The translations under genes and the position numbers were made by a program. DNA of 64,000 bases, taken from NCBI RefSeq assembly GCF_900115205.1, contig NZ_FOYQ01000002.1, positions 558,001 through 622,000 on the forward strand. The letters run 5' to 3'. The stretch's first letter is position 1, and every line of letters starts with the position of its first letter. This document shows, in pieces, positions 48,030 through 57,060 of the stretch. Source of the stretch: Robiginitalea myxolifaciens (GTDB taxonomy: Bacteria > Bacteroidota > Bacteroidia > Flavobacteriales > Flavobacteriaceae). Under the pieces are notes generated by a model. That model saw nothing but the letters and a program-made list of their open reading frames with translations. It did not search any database and was not told where the DNA came from.

Positions 48030-50501
48030 TTAAGGAAGGTCTAGAACCGAATCTACCCGGACCACCCTGCCCTCAGCGTTAATTGCCAGGGCTTTTATCC
48101 TGACCTCACCGGCAGTATCAGTTGGGGAAAAACTAAATGTTACCTCCCCGTTCTCGTCGGTTTTGAGCTCCGGATTCCAATAGACGGTTTGTTCGCCTTC
48201 GTGTTTTTTACTGCGATTCCCGGCGGAACTCATGGTTTCATCGAAATCTACAGGCTTCTTATACCCCTGATAAGTAATAGACCCGTCTTTCCGATTCAGG
48301 AATCGGGTTTTACCGCCGCTAATGGTATAGATCATCAACACCCCGGCAGCTTCGGCCTGAGGTCCGAACCTTGAAGTCTGGGCACGGTCGTGCGTATATT
48401 CAATGCGTTCAATATCCGTTGCCGGGACCAAAAAGAAAGGGGTGTCCCAATCTGCCCGGGGTTCTGGATTGGACTCGGGAGCAAATTCCAAAGGACTAAT
48501 GCTCATGCGTCTGCCGTCTAATACCCAAACCGGTTGGCTCCTTCGCCCTCGTAAACTGATTACCTGAGGTGAGGTCGTACCTTCACCCAAAATAACCAAA
48601 CCGGGTAATTGCCGCACTAAACTAAAGGTGGGTTTAGGGTTTTCCGGGTCCTGAAAAACGATATCGCTCTCCAAAGGAATCACACCATAGGCGCCTAAGG
48701 GAGTAATTTGCGGGCGCTTCTTACGCGCTTCCACTGTAGCCTCCTCCAAGGCGATCAAGCGTTTGGTATCGTATCGGATCTCGGAAAAATCTCCGTCCCG
48801 GTTTGCAGGTTCCCGACGGTATTTCTGAGGTTTGCCCGAAGCAATCCGATCACTTTTTGGAGTCTGTCCTCTTGCCAGACTTTTACCTTTTGTTTCAACC
48901 ACATCAAATAAATCGGAACCATCAAAGTCCGAAGCAAGCTGCTTGACCTTGACTAGCCTTCCCATTTCAGACTCGGCCTCGGTGCGAAATACCAATTGCA
49001 CTTCCCCTTCCAAATCGAGATTGTCCAGCGTAAAATATCCTCCTGAATTGGTTTGAACCTCCCGGATAACAACACCGTCATCAGTAGTGGCGGCCACTTG
49101 AATACGCGTATTCTGTAGCAGTTTATCATAGAGATTATACGCCCGGCCCCGGAATTCCAAACCCGATTGATAGGGATAGATAATCTCAGTTAATGGAAGC
49201 TCAATGCTAGTAAAGTTCTCCGTTGCAATGGCACGAAGGTCATTGATAAACTGACGATCGCGATAATTCCTTTGAATAAGGTTCGATTCGAATCCTCCGG
49301 AGGAATCTTCAGTACCCTGAATGGCAGAAACGGCAAACTCGGATGCGACCGGTTTCCCATTAGAATCCAGAGCCGTCAGCGTTACTTGTATGCTTCCATC
49401 CGATAATACCTGGCTTTCCTTTAATGCAATAGAATAGCCATCGTTTTGATCCTTAAGCACGTCTATGTAGGTGCTCGAAAGTTCATTTCCGACTTGATCG
49501 CTAACCACCACTTGGGTTTTTCCTGCCGGTAAATTCGCTTTGGGAACTTCCAGGAAACGCTCCTCTCCCTGACTTAATCGAAGACTTTCTCGAAACAATT
49601 CAAAACCACCGTTGCTGCCAGTGATAAAGACATCTGTGGGCTCTTGTATCCCACTTTGGGTAATAGCGAATTTGTAGTTCTTTTTATTCAAAGAGTTAAC
49701 GGCAATAGAATATCCGCTGTCCCGAACATCCGCTAAGGGAAGTTCCTGGCTTCCGCTTATAGTAAAAACATATTCGGAATTCGCGTCAGGTTCCAGGTAG
49801 GCCATCGCCAATCCCTGATCGTAAGCAATAATAGGAATTCGCTGATCTGATTGTAATGACCGGATATATCCTACGGCCTTCCCTGCAGGCAATTCAGAAG
49901 TTGAATAGGTAAAAACAATGCGCTTCTTGATACCCGCTATTAGCTCCCCTCCTTCCGGAAAGTACCTGGGTGGCTCCAGGGAAGAATTGACTTCGTTTGG
50001 CACAGCACTGTCCTGTGATGCCTTGTTATTCCGGGCTTCGCTAATCTTTATCCTGAAAATTTCCGGAGCGGCTGGTCCATAATTCCCCATCCATTGCGTG
50101 TAAAAACGCAGCTCATAGGTGCCGGCATCCAGGTTTTTTGGCAATGCCGTACCTCCCTGTACCTTCCCGGATCGAATCGGAAAACGTTCAGATTCTATGG
50201 TTTCCCCTGCAGAATTCCGAATATCCAGGTGTAGCACGCGGCTCAGTCCGCCTAATCTGTTATTGGGGCCGCTTTGCAGTACGCCCTTGAAAAATAACGG
50301 GTCCCCGGCTCGATATGCTGTGCGATCGAGTTGCAGCACCAAATGCTCTTTCCATTGGTAAAGCGAATCAATCGCTTCGGTATTTTGATCCTCAATGGTA
50401 AGATCGATATCCGCCTCGGCTCGAAATTCCCGAACATCGGGTTGGCCGAATACCTGAGCTGAAAATGTAACTGCTAATAAATAAACCAAATACTTCCTCA
50501 T
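48030..50501 (-). CDS. MG2-like/plug-like exported protein without barrel
   Basis: An 823-residue protein with a signal peptide (1-19). An MG2-like domain (about 50-155; LVLQLDRTAYRAGDPLFFKG, then YTQWMGNYG) leads to more beta-sandwich domains, including an A2M-like and a carboxypeptidase-like one (about 440-530), then a plug-like module (about 600-740; RQLPGLVILGEGTTSPQVISLRG, VWVLDGRRM, IERIEYT), and a C-terminal A2M-like strand set (YWNPELKTDENGEVTFSFSP). It has no barrel. The gene follows its paralogue after ten bases. Such proteins are common in Bacteroidota but their role is unproven. Confidence 0.8.
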   Translation of the reverse strand: MRKYLVYLLAVTFSAQVFGQPDVREFRAEADIDLTIEDQNTEAIDSLYQWKEHLVLQLDRTAYRAGDPLFFKGVLQSGPNNRLGGLSRVLHLDIRNSAGETIESERFPIRSGKVQGGTALPKNLDAGTYELRFYTQWMGNYGPAAPEIFRIKISEARNNKASQDSAVPNEVNSSLEPPRYFPEGGELIAGIKKRIVFTYSTSELPAGKAVGYIRSLQSDQRIPIIAYDQGLAMAYLEPDANSEYVFTISGSQELPLADVRDSGYSIAVNSLNKKNYKFAITQSGIQEPTDVFITGSNGGFELFRESLRLSQGEERFLEVPKANLPAGKTQVVVSDQVGNELSSTYIDVLKDQNDGYSIALKESQVLSDGSIQVTLTALDSNGKPVASEFAVSAIQGTEDSSGGFESNLIQRNYRDRQFINDLRAIATENFTSIELPLTEIIYPYQSGLEFRGRAYNLYDKLLQNTRIQVAATTDDGVVIREVQTNSGGYFTLDNLDLEGEVQLVFRTEAESEMGRLVKVKQLASDFDGSDLFDVVETKGKSLARGQTPKSDRIASGKPQKYRREPANRDGDFSEIRYDTKRLIALEEATVEARKKRPQITPLGAYGVIPLESDIVFQDPENPKPTFSLVRQLPGLVILGEGTTSPQVISLRGRRSQPVWVLDGRRMSISPLEFAPESNPEPRADWDTPFFLVPATDIERIEYTHDRAQTSRFGPQAEAAGVLMIYTISGGKTRFLNRKDGSITYQGYKKPVDFDETMSSAGNRSKKHEGEQTVYWNPELKTDENGEVTFSFSPTDTAGEVRIKALAINAEGRVVRVDSVLDLP

Positions 50502-50511
50502 AGCACTAGTT

Positions 50512-52857
50512 TTAATCCAAGCTGTTGTTTAACTCCACATTTAAGGCTCCCGGTTGCCCATCCTGAGTCAGGGCCTGGGCTTCAATGCGAACCGCCTCAT
50601 AATCCCCGGGGCTGGTAAACCGGACCACCGCCTCTCCGTTTGCATCGGTCTGGATGTTTGGGTTCCAGTAAAGGGTTGCTGGTTGTTGCTTGCGGAGTTT
50701 GCGGTTGTCCTGGCGGTATTCCAAATAATCCTGGTAGGTAAGGCTGGATTCAAATCCTTTAAAAGTGATCATCGCGTCCTTCCTTCGTATATACTCTCCT
50801 CCTGAACCACTTCGGGTATAAACCGCAAGAATTGCACCTGTACCTCTACTTCCATAAATGGAGGCATCGGAATTTGACAATACCTCTATGCGCTCTACAT
50901 CTGTAATTGGCACCAAATCGTAAGGATCCTGATTAGCGACTAACAACAAACCGTCCACAACCCATCTTATAGGTCCTGGGGGAGCACCTATGACATTGAT
51001 ATTTGGGGATGTGAAAATATCTCCCGAAACATAAATCCCGGGCACGCGTTGCAAGAGATCTCCAAATGATATGGCAGGTTTATTGGGATCTTGTCGGACA
51101 ACCTTCCTGAGCTTAATTCCATAGGTAGAAGGAGTTTCATTGACTACCTCCTTTTTCTTGGCCGTAACCGTCGTTTCTGCAAGTTGGATCAGGCCTGTTG
51201 TATCGATCACAGCCCAGGGCGTCGTTTCTATTACTTCGTTTTTCTTCCGTGTCAATGGCGCAATTTTCTTCTTGAAAATCTCGTCGTGCAACTGTTCGAA
51301 GCGAACCAGGCTACTTTTGGTATCTTCTCCCTTTGTCCTGAATATCAAGGGAACTTCACCTGCAAAATCTATTTCATCCAATTTAAGAATACCGGAGCCA
51401 TCTGTTTCTACTACAGAAATAAACAGATCTTCATCGGTAGAAGACATAACCTGGACTTCTGTATTACGGAGGAGTTCATTATTCAGGTCATAAACATATC
51501 CTATTAATTCCAGCCCGGTTTGTACCGGGAATTCAATGGCTTCAGGATATGTGGATATTTGATCCTGATCGCTGGAAGCCAATAACCGTAAATCTTCCAG
51601 AAACAGCGATTTACGGACAACCCCGACATCGGCGCTGGCCGGGACGGGCCGCAACATATCGACCAGGTTGGGCTGACTCGCTTGCTCATTTCGGGTTATG
51701 GCCAGGGAAATCTCGGTTTGCACCGGATTTCCGTCGGCATCCGTCAATTTGACTGTGTATTCGTTCTCGCCCCCTTGATTCAGATTTTGTCGGGTAGGTA
51801 CTAATTCAAGGTTTAAGGCTTTAGACACCTCGATGTGTACTGGCCGGGAAGCTTTAACCGCTTCCTCCTCATTCCGAACTTCAAAAGTCAGCAGACCAAC
51901 TGGGAGTGCATTTTTAGGAATTTCGAGATCGGCCTGACCATTGCGCTGAAATTCAATTTCCTGTTCAAATAGCTGCCGATCTCCCCTTTTTCCTACTAGG
52001 TAGAGCCGCTCCTGATTGCCAACTCTGTGGATTCGTAAACGAACACCATCGGACTCCAGACTATTGACTCGTAAGCTAACCCCTTGGTCAGAAGCATTGG
52101 GCAGGGCATAAACAGCCCCATTTTCCAGAACGAGCTCATAATTGGCACCAGATTGAGGGGTGTAGGTTATCATCCCTAAACCTGCTGCATAGTTCTCCAA
52201 TCGGGAAATGGTTTTTCCCTGATCGTCACGTACTGTCCCGTTCCAACTTACCGGATTGCCGTTGGCATCGGATGCTCGAATCACGAGTTTATTATTGACT
52301 CCAGCAATGAGTTGGCCCCCTTCCGGGTAAAATGTAATTCCAGCAGCCTGGGCGAGGTTTTGGGATGAGCTGCTAACTTCCTCCCCATCGGTAATTCGTA
52401 TCTGCCGGCTGAAATACTGGTCTTTGCCGTAATTCTGCATCCAGCGGGTATAGGCCTTAATGGTGTAGGTTTCCGGGTCCAGATCGTCGGGAATCGGTAT
52501 GCTTCCCCCTGCTGTACCCGCTTCCAGGGGATAATAGTAGGAATTCAGGAGTTCTTCATTAGTATCCAACAGATCAACACGCAGCACTTTACTCTGGCTT
52601 ACCCGTAATTTCCTGGGGCCAGTCATCGCATATGCTTTAAAAAAGATATAATCCCCAGCCTGGGCCTCGAGCCGGTCGGTGTGCAGGTAAATACGTTCCT
52701 CCCAATTGATCAGGGAATCGATGACTTCCTGGGATTGCAAAAGCGTTTCAGCAGCTCCGATCCAGGATGCCTGTTCCTCAGGTTCTGAATATTGTGCGGT
52801 TAAAAATAAGTTAGCGCCACACAGGGCAAAAAGCAGGGTAAAGATCCTTTTTTGCAT
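50512..52857 (-). CDS. MG2-like/plug-like exported protein without barrel (paralogue)
   Basis: A 781-residue protein with a signal peptide (1-21, ending LTAQ). Domains follow the same order as the gene after it: MG2-like (about 45-155; IYLHTDRLEAQAGDYIFFKAY, then YTRWMQNYGKD), beta-sandwiches, carboxypeptidase-like domain (about 455-525), plug-like module (about 565-690; LLQRVPGIYVSGDIFTSPNI, RWVVDGLLL, IERIEVLSNSDASIYGSRG) and the A2M-like tail YWNPNIQTDANGEAVVRFTS. The plug is the best preserved of the three copies. The two genes form an operon. Confidence 0.8.
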   Translation of the reverse strand: MQKRIFTLLFALCGANLFLTAQYSEPEEQASWIGAAETLLQSQEVIDSLINWEERIYLHTDRLEAQAGDYIFFKAYAMTGPRKLRVSQSKVLRVDLLDTNEELLNSYYYPLEAGTAGGSIPIPDDLDPETYTIKAYTRWMQNYGKDQYFSRQIRITDGEEVSSSSQNLAQAAGITFYPEGGQLIAGVNNKLVIRASDANGNPVSWNGTVRDDQGKTISRLENYAAGLGMITYTPQSGANYELVLENGAVYALPNASDQGVSLRVNSLESDGVRLRIHRVGNQERLYLVGKRGDRQLFEQEIEFQRNGQADLEIPKNALPVGLLTFEVRNEEEAVKASRPVHIEVSKALNLELVPTRQNLNQGGENEYTVKLTDADGNPVQTEISLAITRNEQASQPNLVDMLRPVPASADVGVVRKSLFLEDLRLLASSDQDQISTYPEAIEFPVQTGLELIGYVYDLNNELLRNTEVQVMSSTDEDLFISVVETDGSGILKLDEIDFAGEVPLIFRTKGEDTKSSLVRFEQLHDEIFKKKIAPLTRKKNEVIETTPWAVIDTTGLIQLAETTVTAKKKEVVNETPSTYGIKLRKVVRQDPNKPAISFGDLLQRVPGIYVSGDIFTSPNINVIGAPPGPIRWVVDGLLLVANQDPYDLVPITDVERIEVLSNSDASIYGSRGTGAILAVYTRSGSGGEYIRRKDAMITFKGFESSLTYQDYLEYRQDNRKLRKQQPATLYWNPNIQTDANGEAVVRFTSPGDYEAVRIEAQALTQDGQPGALNVELNNSLD

Positions 52858-52929: not shown

Positions 52930-54975
52930 CTACTCCGGATATTCCACCCGTAAATGATAGATGTTCGTCAGGCGTTGTTTGAGGACTTTTTTGACCGTCT
53001 CAATTTCCCGGAAAGTAATGTCGGCATTGATGAATTGTCCGGCCTGAACCTGCCCGCCAACAATCTTGTCTACGAATTCCTCAATGATGGTATAGCTAGG
53101 ATTTACGAGGCTTTTCGAGGCTGCTTCCACAGAATCGGCCATCATCAGAATAGCGGTTTCGCGGGAGAACGGAATAGGTCCGGGATAGCGGAACTTCTTC
53201 TCTTCCACTTCCTCTCCCTGCATTTCCTTTGCCTTCTTGTAGAAATAGTAAACCATGGTAGTTCCGTGGTGCGTCCGGATAAAATCGATTACACGGTCAG
53301 GAATTTTATACTTGCGTGCGAGTTCTATTCCCTCGATAACATGGGAGAGGATTATCCGTGCACTCTCCTGGGGATCCAGTTCGTCGTGCGGGTTTATGTT
53401 GGTAATCTGGTTCTCCGTGAAATATGTGGGATTGTTCATTTTCCCCACATCGTGATACAGGGCCCCTACTCGGGTAAGCATGGCGTTCGCGCCTATTTCA
53501 TTTGCTGCCGCCTCTGCAAGGTTAGCCACCTGGAGGGAATGGTTGAACGTACCAGGGGCTTTGGTGGAGAGTTCTTTCAGCAATTTGGAATTGGTATCGG
53601 ACAGCTCCAGCAGGCTCACATCGGATACCATCCCAAAGATCTTCTCATATATATAGATCAGGGGTTGCACAAAAAGGGTGAGCATCCCATTGAGCAGGAA
53701 GAATCCAAAGTTTACCCAAACGACATTCTGAATATTTCCCTCGTGGATAATGTGAAAGGCAAAATAGCCCAGGATGTAAATAAGGGTAATCTGCCCAACT
53801 GAAATAAAGAGGTTGGCCCGCTTGTACAATTCGGAAACAGTCAGGATAGTAACGATACCTGCCATTATTTGCAGGAAGATATACTCAAAGCTATTCGGCA
53901 CTACAAATCCAAGGATCAGCACCGTAAGTACATGAACAAATAGTCCCAACCGGGCATCGAAAAACGTCTTTAGAATTAAAGGCAGCACGCATAGCGGAAC
54001 TACAAAGACGTAAGCATCGTCGTATTTGATCACCAGGTTGGTCAAAAAGACCATGATCAGGATATTGACAAAAATAAAGGTGAGCTTGACGTTATTCTGG
54101 TAGACCTGTGGCCGGTATTTCTTTAAGAATAACAGGAGCATCAACAATACCAGAGCCACCAATATGGTGTATCCGCCCAGGATCAGGTACTGATTGTTTT
54201 CTGACCATAGTTCCGACTCATACTCCCCACTTAAGGATTGGAGAATATTGAAATTCTCGGCTTCCACAACCTCTCCGCGGGCGATTACCAGTGCGCCCTC
54301 ATCTACATTACCCCGTGTTAAGGAGATTCGGGATAGCTCTTCTTCTAACTCCCTGGCGGTTAACGCTTCGTCGCGGCTAACATTGGGCTGGACTACACGA
54401 AAAAACAAGTCCTGATAGCGATTGGTAAACGAAGCATATCCCGCTCGTAATTCCTGACGTAACCAGGAATTTATGTCCCCCATTCGCAAGAGCCGGTCTG
54501 CGTCCATCCCACTGGCCTCATTATCGCGAACCAGGTAAATACGATCTGTGTTTGGGGGTGCATTGCCATCCCATATCCCGTTTACATACAAGCTGTCTAG
54601 CAAGGCCAATCCGCGTTGTCGCAATTGGTTCCAACTGCGGGTATCAAATTCCTGCGGGTTGAAATATTCCGAGAAACTACGGTCAAATTCCTGATAGACC
54701 TGCTGTTCTATTTGGGTATCGAAACGGTAGTAAGGAATTTGCTGTGCGCGGATTTCTTCCCGCTCACGCTCTAGTTCCTCTGCGCTTTTATTGATGGAAA
54801 AGTCAAAAGGAGCATACAGGTTTTCGTATTGCCAGGGTTTTCCCTTTTGAAATTCGTACTTGAACTGTCCTCCGCGGGGAAAGAAAAAAACAATGGCTGC
54901 CACCGTAACCAAATGGAGCACATACTTATATATCAGGGATTGGGAACGGTAAAAAGAATCCAGGCTTCGGGCCAT
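52930..54975 (-). CDS. 7TM-HD (PgpH-like) cyclic-di-AMP phosphodiesterase candidate
   Basis: A 681-residue membrane protein: TM1 (about 15-33), an extracellular 7TMR-HDED domain (about 40-260), seven TM segments (about 265-455) and a cytoplasmic HD domain (about 475-640) with GTFNHSLQVANLAEAAA, the metal motif ALYHDVGKM, SHVIEGIELARKYKIP and RTHHGT. This is the layout of PgpH, which hydrolyses c-di-AMP. Enzyme function is inferred from the family. It is convergent with nothing nearby and divergent from the thiolase gene; a promoter-like TATTTTTG lies just upstream. Confidence 0.93.
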   Translation of the reverse strand: MARSLDSFYRSQSLIYKYVLHLVTVAAIVFFFPRGGQFKYEFQKGKPWQYENLYAPFDFSINKSAEELEREREEIRAQQIPYYRFDTQIEQQVYQEFDRSFSEYFNPQEFDTRSWNQLRQRGLALLDSLYVNGIWDGNAPPNTDRIYLVRDNEASGMDADRLLRMGDINSWLRQELRAGYASFTNRYQDLFFRVVQPNVSRDEALTARELEEELSRISLTRGNVDEGALVIARGEVVEAENFNILQSLSGEYESELWSENNQYLILGGYTILVALVLLMLLLFLKKYRPQVYQNNVKLTFIFVNILIMVFLTNLVIKYDDAYVFVVPLCVLPLILKTFFDARLGLFVHVLTVLILGFVVPNSFEYIFLQIMAGIVTILTVSELYKRANLFISVGQITLIYILGYFAFHIIHEGNIQNVVWVNFGFFLLNGMLTLFVQPLIYIYEKIFGMVSDVSLLELSDTNSKLLKELSTKAPGTFNHSLQVANLAEAAANEIGANAMLTRVGALYHDVGKMNNPTYFTENQITNINPHDELDPQESARIILSHVIEGIELARKYKIPDRVIDFIRTHHGTTMVYYFYKKAKEMQGEEVEEKKFRYPGPIPFSRETAILMMADSVEAASKSLVNPSYTIIEEFVDKIVGGQVQAGQFINADITFREIETVKKVLKQRLTNIYHLRVEYPE

Positions 54976-55082: not shown

Positions 55083-56258
55083 ATGAAAGAGGTTGTCATT
55101 GTATCTGCCGTACGAACTCCAATCGGGAGTTTCATGGGTAGTCTTTCTACCATTCCCGCGCCTAAACTAGGTGCCATTGCCATAAAAGGTGCACTGGACA
55201 AAGCTGGTCTGGATCCTTCAGCAGTAGAAGAGGTCCTGATGGGTCATGTTGTACAAGCTGGTGCCGGTCAAGCCCCTGCCCGTCAGGCCGCGATTTATGC
55301 CGGGATTCCTGATACCGTCCCATGTACCACTGTAAACAAGGTTTGCGCTTCAGGAATGAAGGCTATTATGCAGGCCGCTCAGAGTATTGCCCTGGGGCAT
55401 GCCTCTGTTATCGTTGCAGGGGGAATGGAAAATATGAGCCTTATCCCCCATTATATGCATCTGAGGACCAGTACCAAATTCGGTCCTGCCAAAATGGAAG
55501 ATGGGATGCAGAAAGACGGTTTGGTAGATGTTTATGACCAACAGGCCATGGGAGTTTGCGCCGATGCGTGCGCGGATAAATACGAATTTAGCCGGGAGGA
55601 TCAGGATGCCTATGCCATTCAGTCGTATACCCGTTCCGCCGAAGCCTGGAAATCCGGGCATTTTGCGGAAGAAGTGGTCCCGGTACCTGTTCCCCAACGC
55701 AAGGGAGATCCGGTACTTTTTTCGGAAGATGAAGAGTACAAAAATGTATTCATGGATAAAATCCCGAAGCTGCGACCTGCCTTTACCAAAGAGGGAACAG
55801 TTACGGCCGCTAACGCCTCTACCATTAATGATGGGGCAGCTGCACTGGTCCTGATGAGTGCAGAAAAGGCTGAGGCAATGGGGATTAAGCCAATTGCCGC
55901 AATTCGCGGCTTTGCAGACGCTGCACAGGAGCCCAAGTGGTTCACTACGGCGCCCGCTAAAGCCCTGCCGCTGGCTTTGGACCGTGCTGGTGTAAGCATT
56001 GAGGATATCGATTACTTCGAATTCAATGAAGCCTTCAGCGTGGTAGGATTGGCCAATATCAAACTACTCTCTCTGGACGACTCCAATGTCAATGTAAATG
56101 GGGGAGCCGTTTCATTGGGACACCCCCTGGGTTGTTCGGGGGCGAGAATTACCGTAACCCTCGCACATATCTTAAACCAGCGAGAGGCCCGATACGGGGC
56201 AGCTGCTATTTGCAATGGAGGTGGAGGAGCTTCGGCTCTGGTGATCGAACGCTTATAA
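55083..56258 (+). CDS. Acetyl-CoA C-acetyltransferase (thiolase)
   Basis: A 391-residue biosynthetic-type thiolase of full length. Two acetyl-CoA are condensed to acetoacetyl-CoA, or the reverse, in the cytoplasm. Catalytic residues are seen in TVNKVCASGMKAI (nucleophile Cys), NEAFSVV (Asn/Glu), GGAVSLGHPLGCSGAR (His) and the second Cys in AICNGGGGASALVIERL. The start MKEVVIVSAVRTPIGSFMG is the family N terminus. An NlpC/P60-like gene follows after 18 bases, probably on the same transcript. Confidence 0.95.
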   Translation: MKEVVIVSAVRTPIGSFMGSLSTIPAPKLGAIAIKGALDKAGLDPSAVEEVLMGHVVQAGAGQAPARQAAIYAGIPDTVPCTTVNKVCASGMKAIMQAAQSIALGHASVIVAGGMENMSLIPHYMHLRTSTKFGPAKMEDGMQKDGLVDVYDQQAMGVCADACADKYEFSREDQDAYAIQSYTRSAEAWKSGHFAEEVVPVPVPQRKGDPVLFSEDEEYKNVFMDKIPKLRPAFTKEGTVTAANASTINDGAAALVLMSAEKAEAMGIKPIAAIRGFADAAQEPKWFTTAPAKALPLALDRAGVSIEDIDYFEFNEAFSVVGLANIKLLSLDDSNVNVNGGAVSLGHPLGCSGARITVTLAHILNQREARYGAAAICNGGGGASALVIERL

Positions 56259-56276: not shown

Positions 56277-57026
56277 ATGCGCTACGGAATCTGTCCCTTG
56301 AGTTTAGTACCCGTATTCGAAGAACGGGAACAGGGAAAAATGCTCACCCAACTCTTATACGGGGAGCTGTTTAAGATTCTGGACAGTCGCAAAAACCATT
56401 ATCGCATCCGGGTCCAACTCGATAAGACAGAGGGTTGGATACGCAAGGATCAGGCAGCGGAATTAGAAGAAGCTGTATGGGAAGAAACGCTCAAGTCTTC
56501 TATGGGCGCTTGTACGCAGGATCTTTTCAGCCATATTATCAATGAAGAAGGCATCCTCTTCCCGGTTGCTATTGGCGCCAATGCAGTACGTGCATCGCTA
56601 ATGGATCATCGGTTCGAAGGAGATTCCTCCATCCCGGCAAAGGACCGGGAGCACCTTATCTCTCAGGCTTTATTACTGCTGAATAGCCCTGAAATGCCAG
56701 GGGGCCGTTCTCCTTTGGGAATAGACGCTGGGGGATTTACCCAACTGGTTTATAAGTGTTGTGGTTATGCCCTGGATCGAAACCCTCAGCAACAGGCCCT
56801 GCAAGGCGATGCCCTGAGTTTTATCGAGGAAAGTGAGCCCGGGGATTTGGCGTTTTTCGATGGCCCGGACGGAGCGATAGATCATGTGGGCATTATCATG
56901 AAAAACAATTACATCATTCACGTTCACGGGCAGGTGCGTATCGATCGCATTGACCATAGCGGCATCTTCAATACGCAGCTCCGCAGGTATACCCACCCTT
57001 TGCGGGTAATCAAAAAATTGCTGTAA
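56277..57026 (+). CDS. NlpC/P60-fold protein lacking the catalytic cysteine
   Basis: A 249-residue protein with an SH3-like N-terminal part (about 1-65; GELFKILDSRKNHYRIRV, TEGWIRKDQA), a middle linker and a C40 NlpC/P60 domain (about 120-245). In the active-site motif GIDCSGF the Cys-Ser is Ala-Gly: SPLGIDAGGFTQLVY, with Ala151 encoded by gct at 56727-56729. The other residues are kept: His203 in IDHVGIIM and His215/217 in IIHVHG. It has no signal peptide. Active relatives cut gamma-D-glutamyl-meso-DAP peptidoglycan bonds; this one should be inactive as a cysteine peptidase and may be a binding protein. Confidence 0.85.
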   Translation: MRYGICPLSLVPVFEEREQGKMLTQLLYGELFKILDSRKNHYRIRVQLDKTEGWIRKDQAAELEEAVWEETLKSSMGACTQDLFSHIINEEGILFPVAIGANAVRASLMDHRFEGDSSIPAKDREHLISQALLLLNSPEMPGGRSPLGIDAGGFTQLVYKCCGYALDRNPQQQALQGDALSFIEESEPGDLAFFDGPDGAIDHVGIIMKNNYIIHVHGQVRIDRIDHSGIFNTQLRRYTHPLRVIKKLL

Positions 57027-57028
57027 AA

Positions 57029-57060
57029 AGAAAACCCCAGGTAGTTTCCCAGGGTTTCTA
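57029..57060. terminator. Convergent hairpin terminator
   Basis: AAACCCC...GGGTTT with inner pairing and a T-rich end lies between the stops of the NlpC/P60-like gene and the TPR gene. It may serve both directions. Confidence 0.5.

Follow-up and report, generated by a model that had tools for sequence, protein, structure and literature searches.

YkfC of Bacillus cereus (BcYkfC, structure 3h41) carries an SH3b domain N-terminal to an NlpC/P60 domain, and in its structure with ligand the dipeptide L-Ala-gamma-D-Glu is held by Tyr118, Trp228, Ser239 and Asp256, among other residues. The report describing it gives Asp256 in the NlpC/P60 domain and Tyr118 in the SH3b domain as the marks of the YkfC subfamily and counts about 1% of 2599 NlpC/P60 sequences as being without the Cys/His dyad (PMC2954226). 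In YkfC of Chlamydia trachomatis, exchange of the cysteine for alanine (C172A) is reported to abolish activity (PMC9928106), and RipD of Mycobacterium tuberculosis (Rv1566c, structure 4jxb), with Ala83-Ser132-Glu144, is described as a non-catalytic NlpC/P60 protein that binds peptidoglycan (PMC12067865). Here we describe a gene in a 64,000-nt stretch of Robiginitalea myxolifaciens DNA (contig NZ_FOYQ01000002.1, positions 558,001 to 622,000; this whole stretch is called the window) that encodes a YkfC-like protein with alanine in place of the cysteine nucleophile. We favor, with some reserve, the view that the product is one instance of a recurrent pseudoenzyme, which would derive from an ancestor of the YkfC/dipeptidyl-peptidase-VI type and be kept under selection for a second, non-proteolytic function.

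The gene (56277-57026, + strand) starts with ATG and encodes 249 residues in an open frame free of damage, as had been noted in an earlier sequence-only reading of the window. An SH3b domain (Pfam SH3_16, residues 19-58, 56331-56450, +; E 1.8e-7, above the cut-off, with the corresponding strands in an AlphaFold2 (AF2) model) lies N-terminal to an NlpC/P60 domain (Pfam PF00877, residues 142-230, 56700-56966, +; E 2e-14, 53.9 bits against a cut-off of 23), which is the architecture of YkfC, while no NCBIfam family reached its cut-off for the protein. It was the single match at E <= 0.001 in its own 3.2-Mb genome, where the only further match to the NlpC/P60 family was a Cys-bearing protein with a lipoprotein-like start. 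No signal peptide was seen on inspection by eye, with no predictor run, in line with the earlier reading, and the protein is probably cytosolic. We also noted that Cys6 (56292-56294), within an N-terminal YGIC motif, is near-universal in Cys-bearing and Cys-less homologues (76/79, 36/37 and 9/9).

The best profile match was to a putative dipeptidyl-peptidase VI of Bacteroides (E 1.2e-29), and the closest solved folds were likewise those of the putative Bacteroides dipeptidyl-peptidase VI proteins BT_1314 and BACOVA_00612. An AF2 model of the window protein, built from 21 sequences (pLDDT 89.1, pTM 0.85; 92.0 and 0.89 for a Cys-bearing Muriicola protein, also from 21 sequences), matched BT_1314 with Z 22.6 in both structures (3pvq, rmsd 3.2, 237 residues aligned; 4r0k, rmsd 3.0, 238 aligned), BACOVA_00612 with Z 22.5 (3npf, rmsd 3.1, 240 aligned) and BcYkfC over nearly the full chain with Z 21.8 (rmsd 2.8, 234 aligned). 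RipD matched in the NlpC/P60 domain alone (Z 16.0, rmsd 2.2, 115 aligned). By architecture and modeled fold, the window protein is thus of the YkfC/dipeptidyl-peptidase VI kind.

The residues that would cut and hold the substrate are, in large part, gone. A profile alignment against 3h41, whose chain numbering differs from that published for BcYkfC (PMC2954226) by a constant 22 as counted by hand, placed A151 (gct, 56727) at Cys238 and G152 (ggg, 56730) at Ser239, directly after the retained D150 (gac, 56724; Asp237), so that residues 148-154 read GIDAGGF (the three sites span 56724-56732, +). Both codons bear out the exchanges of Cys for Ala and Ser for Gly described in the sequence-only reading, which had also stated correctly that the histidine regions are intact: H203 (56883-56885, +) aligns with the catalytic His291 and H215 (56919-56921, +) with His303, the third position of the triad. 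The same reading took the rest of the fold to be unchanged, and for the fold itself the model and the solved structures agree; the substrate pocket is another matter, and the extent of the change was understated. T51 (56427-56429, +) stands at Tyr118, the SH3b tyrosine that holds the free amine of the substrate; E139 and P141, on either side of M140 (56691-56699, +), stand at Tyr226 and Trp228, where most Cys-bearing homologues read PYLW; and N169 and P170, which follow the retained R168 (Arg255), stand at Asp256 and Ser257 (56778-56786, +). Cys238, Ser239, Tyr118, Tyr226, Trp228, Asp256 and Ser257 of BcYkfC are therefore all replaced, whereas Asp237, Arg255, His291 and His303 are kept. BT_1314 and BACOVA_00612, in contrast, keep DCSG, PYLW and RDASQQ, none of which is present in full in the window protein. 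With the PF00877 profile, the fold, the histidine and the third polar residue (H203 and H215) in place, it is the missing Cys, together with the missing equivalents of Tyr118 and Asp256, because of which we would assign the protein neither to the C40 peptidases nor, despite its SH3b-NlpC/P60 architecture, to the YkfC subfamily, and release of diaminopimelic acid is not expected of it.

A homologue was detected in 58 of 60 relatives at E <= 0.001 and, at E <= 1e-30, in 382 of 395 genomes of the family Flavobacteriaceae. Alanine occupies the Cys position in every one of the ten genomes read from the window's genus, because of which a base-call error at this site is rejected; PYLW has been lost in them too (PExx). 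Cys161 and Cys162, already set aside as non-catalytic in the sequence-only reading, are rejected as a substitute nucleophile since they are not conserved (position 162 is Cys in 6 of the 10). The cysteine is present in many other genera with the state changing repeatedly, and where it is missing no alternative nucleophile has been conserved at the site.

A wider census combined several sources: the loci that matched the window protein best, the top 30 matches to a homologue in a record with the title Flavobacterium psychrophilum, a group of 80 from the middle of the range (minus G079, G119, G342 and G423), 20 named loci, and 20 order-level genomes and others; 11 and then 2 duplicates were removed before counting. 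Among the resulting 257 distinct homologues, 169 have Cys at position 151 and 88 do not (53 Ala, 23 Ser, 7 Asn, 3 Gly, 2 Asp), proportions that are not population frequencies, the census not being random. Of the 382 matching family genomes, an estimated 170 lie outside it, many of them in the Flavobacterium-near list, where Cys was found in 22 of 22 distinct rows read. D150, H203 and H215 are invariant in all 257 homologues and R168 in 256. The pocket positions, in contrast, differ strongly between Cys-bearing and Cys-less rows: Y51 is found in 148/168 versus 5/88, D169 in 142/169 versus 9/88, Y139 in 164/169 versus 36/88, W141 in 162/169 versus 43/88, S152 in 167/169 versus 39/88 and H217 in 131/169 versus 26/88. 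Where Tyr51 has been lost, the commonest replacement at this position of the old substrate pocket is Cys (29/80 Cys-less rows). Because Cys is found in 18 of the 21 rows that represent other families within the order, it is probably the ancestral state; the outgroup as counted held 25 rows, 22 with Cys, including four from metagenome-assembled genomes (one of them, L049, titled Flavobacteriaceae), without which the count is 18 of 21. The three Cys-less outgroup rows belong to two other families (L259 and L268; L261).

The loss does not appear to be a single event. On a gene tree of 219 rows, inferred with the motif and pocket columns excluded, we counted 20 changes of Cys state, at least 8 of them forced by well-supported (starred) branches, compared with 9 changes (2 forced) on an earlier 127-row tree and 25 by parsimony on a FastTree tree of all 257 rows; all of these counts come from the gene tree of one short protein and do not distinguish loss from regain. 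Two genera contain both states. In genus g178, L216 has Cys and L202 Ala, while in g51, L074 and L283 have Cys and L284 has Ser together with Y51 and D169, because of which the nucleophile probably went before the pocket residues in that genus. One ancient loss is unsupported given these two genera and the at least 8 changes on starred branches.

Selection on the Cys-less versions was assessed from the ratio of nonsynonymous to synonymous substitution (dN/dS, NG86 method) for pairs of at least 78% identity with unsaturated dS, saturated pairs (6 Cys-less, 138 Cys) being dropped. Both medians were low, 0.066 among the 10 pairs without Cys and 0.077 among the 212 pairs with it. Within the window's genus, synonymous sites are close to saturation (median proportion of synonymous differences, pS, 0.74), and the uncorrected ratio of nonsynonymous to synonymous differences, pN/pS, was 0.37 over 45 pairs and 0.29 for residues 121-249; pairs that include the window protein gave 0.37 and 0.28. 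Purifying selection thus acts on the Cys-less versions, at a resolution that does not extend to a fine comparison between the two classes.

Site by site, the Cys-less subtree carries a median of 17 changes per site, and 21 of 249 sites, H203, H215 and D150 among them, carry none; R168 changed once. The sites of T51, P141, G152 and N169 changed 42, 37, 32 and 44 times. When the 249 positions were ranked by how much they change compared with the Cys rows, the first 11 were 151, 152, 21, 139, 240, 153, 72, 141, 230, 218 and 51, of which 151 defines the class and 240, 153, 72 and 230 rank high on only two to three changes; positions 169 and 170 fell outside the listed top 15 despite the 44 changes at 169. 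These patterns point to a substrate pocket that decays above a His/Asp/Arg floor that stays. Just three residues, P96, S101 and F231, reach at least 85% in Cys-less rows from a share below 70% in Cys rows, and none of the three looks like a plausible new nucleophile in the window protein, where residue 101 is Ala.

Repeated loss of the cysteine combined with continued selection suggests that the ancestral enzyme already had a second function. We propose that the ancestor was a gamma-D-glutamyl-diamino-acid endopeptidase of the YkfC/dipeptidyl-peptidase-VI type. In the Cys-less versions the nucleophile is absent and residues of the S2-S1 pocket have gone with it, but purifying selection continues, and the two histidines, the Asp that precedes the Cys site and a large part of the C-terminal half are retained. 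In the second function, the conserved cleft floor and C-terminal strands might serve to bind a ligand or a partner. A pseudoenzyme is the reading we prefer because the protein lacks the Cys of a C40 peptidase and the Tyr118 and Asp256 of the YkfC subfamily, and because the Cys-to-Ala form of C. trachomatis YkfC, a direct experimental analogue, is reported to be inactive (PMC9928106).

Loss of the cysteine may have been permitted where the turnover of murein peptides is handled otherwise. We searched 80 genomes (43 Cys-less, 37 Cys-bearing), picked from the census by hand and not at random. Close relatives (E < 1e-100) of a dipeptide-epimerase-like gene of the own genome were found in 40 of the 43 Cys-less genomes and in 12 of the 37 with Cys. 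The copy in G123, among the 40, contains an in-frame TGA, and the weaker matches in G108 (1.4e-41) and, on the Cys side, in G029 (8.2e-45) were left out of the orthologue count. A second C40 protein of ~400 residues, exported-looking, was present in 21 of 43 Cys-less and 5 of 37 Cys genomes, and was found neither in the own genome nor in any of the three genomes searched within the window's genus. The epimerase-like gene of the own genome has 3iji as its best solved relative (E 2.2e-61) and NCBIfam matches, among them epimerase and racemase models, that are all below cut-off. As to re-use of tripeptide, the Mpl model matched in the same genome below its cut-off only, and no match to an S66 LD-carboxypeptidase was found there. 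Redundancy may have permitted the loss in some lineages. Loss of the whole peptide-recycling pathway is unsupported, given that the epimerase-like gene persists in the own genome and in 40 of the 43 Cys-less ones, and the second exported-looking C40 protein could serve as a general cause in at most half of the genomes (21/43) and in none of the three searched within the genus. On a more tentative level, we consider it possible, though doubtful, that a YkfC-like protein with two jobs repeatedly discards the cutting one in dipeptide-epimerase lineages, and that the His-His-Asp-Arg floor and the C-terminal face are frozen by the other job, for which they would form either a docking surface or a new site for a ligand.

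Several observations weigh against a pseudoenzyme with a selected second function. That function is deduced from conservation alone, and H203, H215 and D150 have zero changes on the Cys subtree also; as they are fixed in the Cys rows too, their invariance need not mean a new function and could reflect folding alone. The coupling of pocket and Cys is strong and in the expected direction in raw counts but not significant in the eight independent starred-branch pairs that differ in Cys (on average, Y51 changed the same way in 3.3 and D169 in 2.2, the opposite way in 0.0, with no difference in the remaining pairs), and PYLW is still present in many Cys-less rows. The 10 Cys-less pairs behind the dN/dS median share branches, have mostly high dS (many >1) and include none from the window's genus. 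On the 80-row tree, the epimerase link amounts to 2-4 informative independent pairs, nearly all in one direction (median p 0.25), and the link to the second C40 protein is also not significant. Only short pieces of the gene were found in four genomes (G031, G119, G342 and G423). Finally, no other end branch in the genus is as long as that of the window protein (1.15 versus 0.23-0.68), because of which this copy may be somewhat freer than those of its congeners.

The window protein is probably not a peptidase, and a classical peptidoglycan-fragment binder also seems improbable on the residues present. The sequence-only reading had suggested a peptidoglycan-fragment sensor or binder, in which the dead cleft still binds murein peptide and signals, and RipD, reported to bind peptidoglycan without being catalytic (PMC12067865), offers a precedent. 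The Asp237 and Arg255 equivalents and both histidines are kept, as is Trp141 in 43 of the 88 Cys-less homologues. We nevertheless regard this proposal as unlikely: the residues that contact L-Ala-gamma-D-Glu are replaced in the window protein (T51, P141, G152 and N169), at sites that are among the fast-changing ones, and those for the free amine are mostly lost across Cys-less rows (Y51 kept in 5/88, D169 in 9/88). The constancy of His203 and His215 in all 88 Cys-less rows could also be taken to mean that the protein is still an enzyme, with another nucleophile or with some other chemistry run by the two histidines, and Ser at position 151 (23/88) or Cys at position 51 (29/80) would be candidates elsewhere in the family. 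Ala is, however, the commonest replacement (53/88), the window protein itself has Ala151 and Thr51, and among the three positions that rise in Cys-less rows, position 101 is already Ser in 96 of 139 rows with Cys, and the window protein has Ala there; continued catalysis is thus rather improbable.

Adjacency raises a further possibility. The gene for an acetyl-CoA C-acyltransferase (thiolase; 55083-56258, +; TIGR01930, E 4e-138, above cut-off) ends 18 bp upstream of the Cys-less gene, and a thiolase gene was found upstream on the same strand at 46 of 46 Cys-less and 74 of 75 Cys-bearing loci, 6 of 127 loci being excluded for too short a flank. In these 120 of 121 loci, across both states, the distance is mostly within 100 bp, as might be expected of a structural or regulatory partner of the thiolase in acyl-CoA metabolism. 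We think this very unlikely, as the argument is one of adjacency alone and other neighbors are often kept too (a 7TM-HD gene at 91 and a TPR gene at 103 of the searched loci, whose flanks are short). That the gene is a relic in slow decay, held merely by its position behind the thiolase gene, would accord with the lost catalytic and pocket residues, the long end branch of the window protein, the four genomes with gene pieces only and the second exported-looking C40 protein in 21/43 Cys-less versus 5/37 Cys genomes, which suggests redundancy in some. Against it stand the dN/dS of ~0.07 in 10 Cys-less pairs, the pN/pS of 0.37 in the genus despite near-saturated synonymous sites, the matches at E <= 1e-30 in 382 of 395 family genomes and the 21 sites unchanged on the Cys-less subtree, and we give this possibility hardly any weight.

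Around the gene, a terminator-like hairpin follows at 57031-57058; it is a consensus match only, and the three such matches found are not above the shuffle mean of 2.8. Divergent from the thiolase-C40 pair lies a gene (52930-54975, -) for a protein with 7TM-7TMR_HD and HD domains, which we take to be of the cyclic-di-nucleotide phosphodiesterase type. Beyond it, the products of two adjoining genes (48030-50501 and 50512-52857, both -) are large, match MG2/Big_1-like and TonB plug domains and are perhaps related to each other in tandem. The neighborhood of the epimerase-like gene shows two layouts, neither with a clear partner for the window protein. At L238 (G016), L245 (G382) and L249 (G131), the gene adjoins one for an exported-looking SH3b-NlpC/P60 protein of ~400 residues, an arrangement that resembles a murein-peptide degradation operon. 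In the own genome (L133/L136; C3:129836-130882), it adjoins a gene for a class I/II aminotransferase-like pyridoxal phosphate (PLP) enzyme, and an aminotransferase-like neighbor was found in 7 of 10 further flagged loci (L239, L241, L243, L244, L246, L248 and L250).

If a second function is indeed what keeps these proteins, a switch from enzyme to pseudoenzyme would have recurred in a protein of nearly every sampled Flavobacteriaceae genome. NlpC/P60 proteins are by default read as cell-wall peptidases, and 88 of 257 homologues in this non-random sample are without the Cys nucleophile, which bears on how annotation pipelines name such genes as well as on the organization of murein-peptide recycling in Bacteroidota. 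Relatives with and without Cys, even within one genus, amount to replicate natural experiments for finding the second function.

Non-catalytic NlpC/P60 proteins are already known, RipD being the example at hand. Like RipD as described (PMC12067865), the window protein has an NlpC/P60 domain without Cys and with Ala at its place (Ala83 in RipD), and the domain folds match. RipD has also lost its His, whereas both histidines are kept in 257 of 257 homologues here, H203 and H215 of the window protein among them. Unlike RipD, the window protein has a fused SH3b domain and no signal peptide that could be seen by eye, and the loss is repeated across many genera. YkfC of C. trachomatis, in turn, is reported as a peptide-recycling enzyme of the YkfC type, active in its natural form, and its inactive C172A form (PMC9928106) is the man-made counterpart of A151. 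Our searches within the open-licence PMC texts turned up no description of Cys-less YkfC-like proteins in Flavobacteriaceae. As far as that literature shows, what is new here is that one widely conserved protein has undergone the change many times, that its substrate pocket was lost alongside, and that neither histidine varies.
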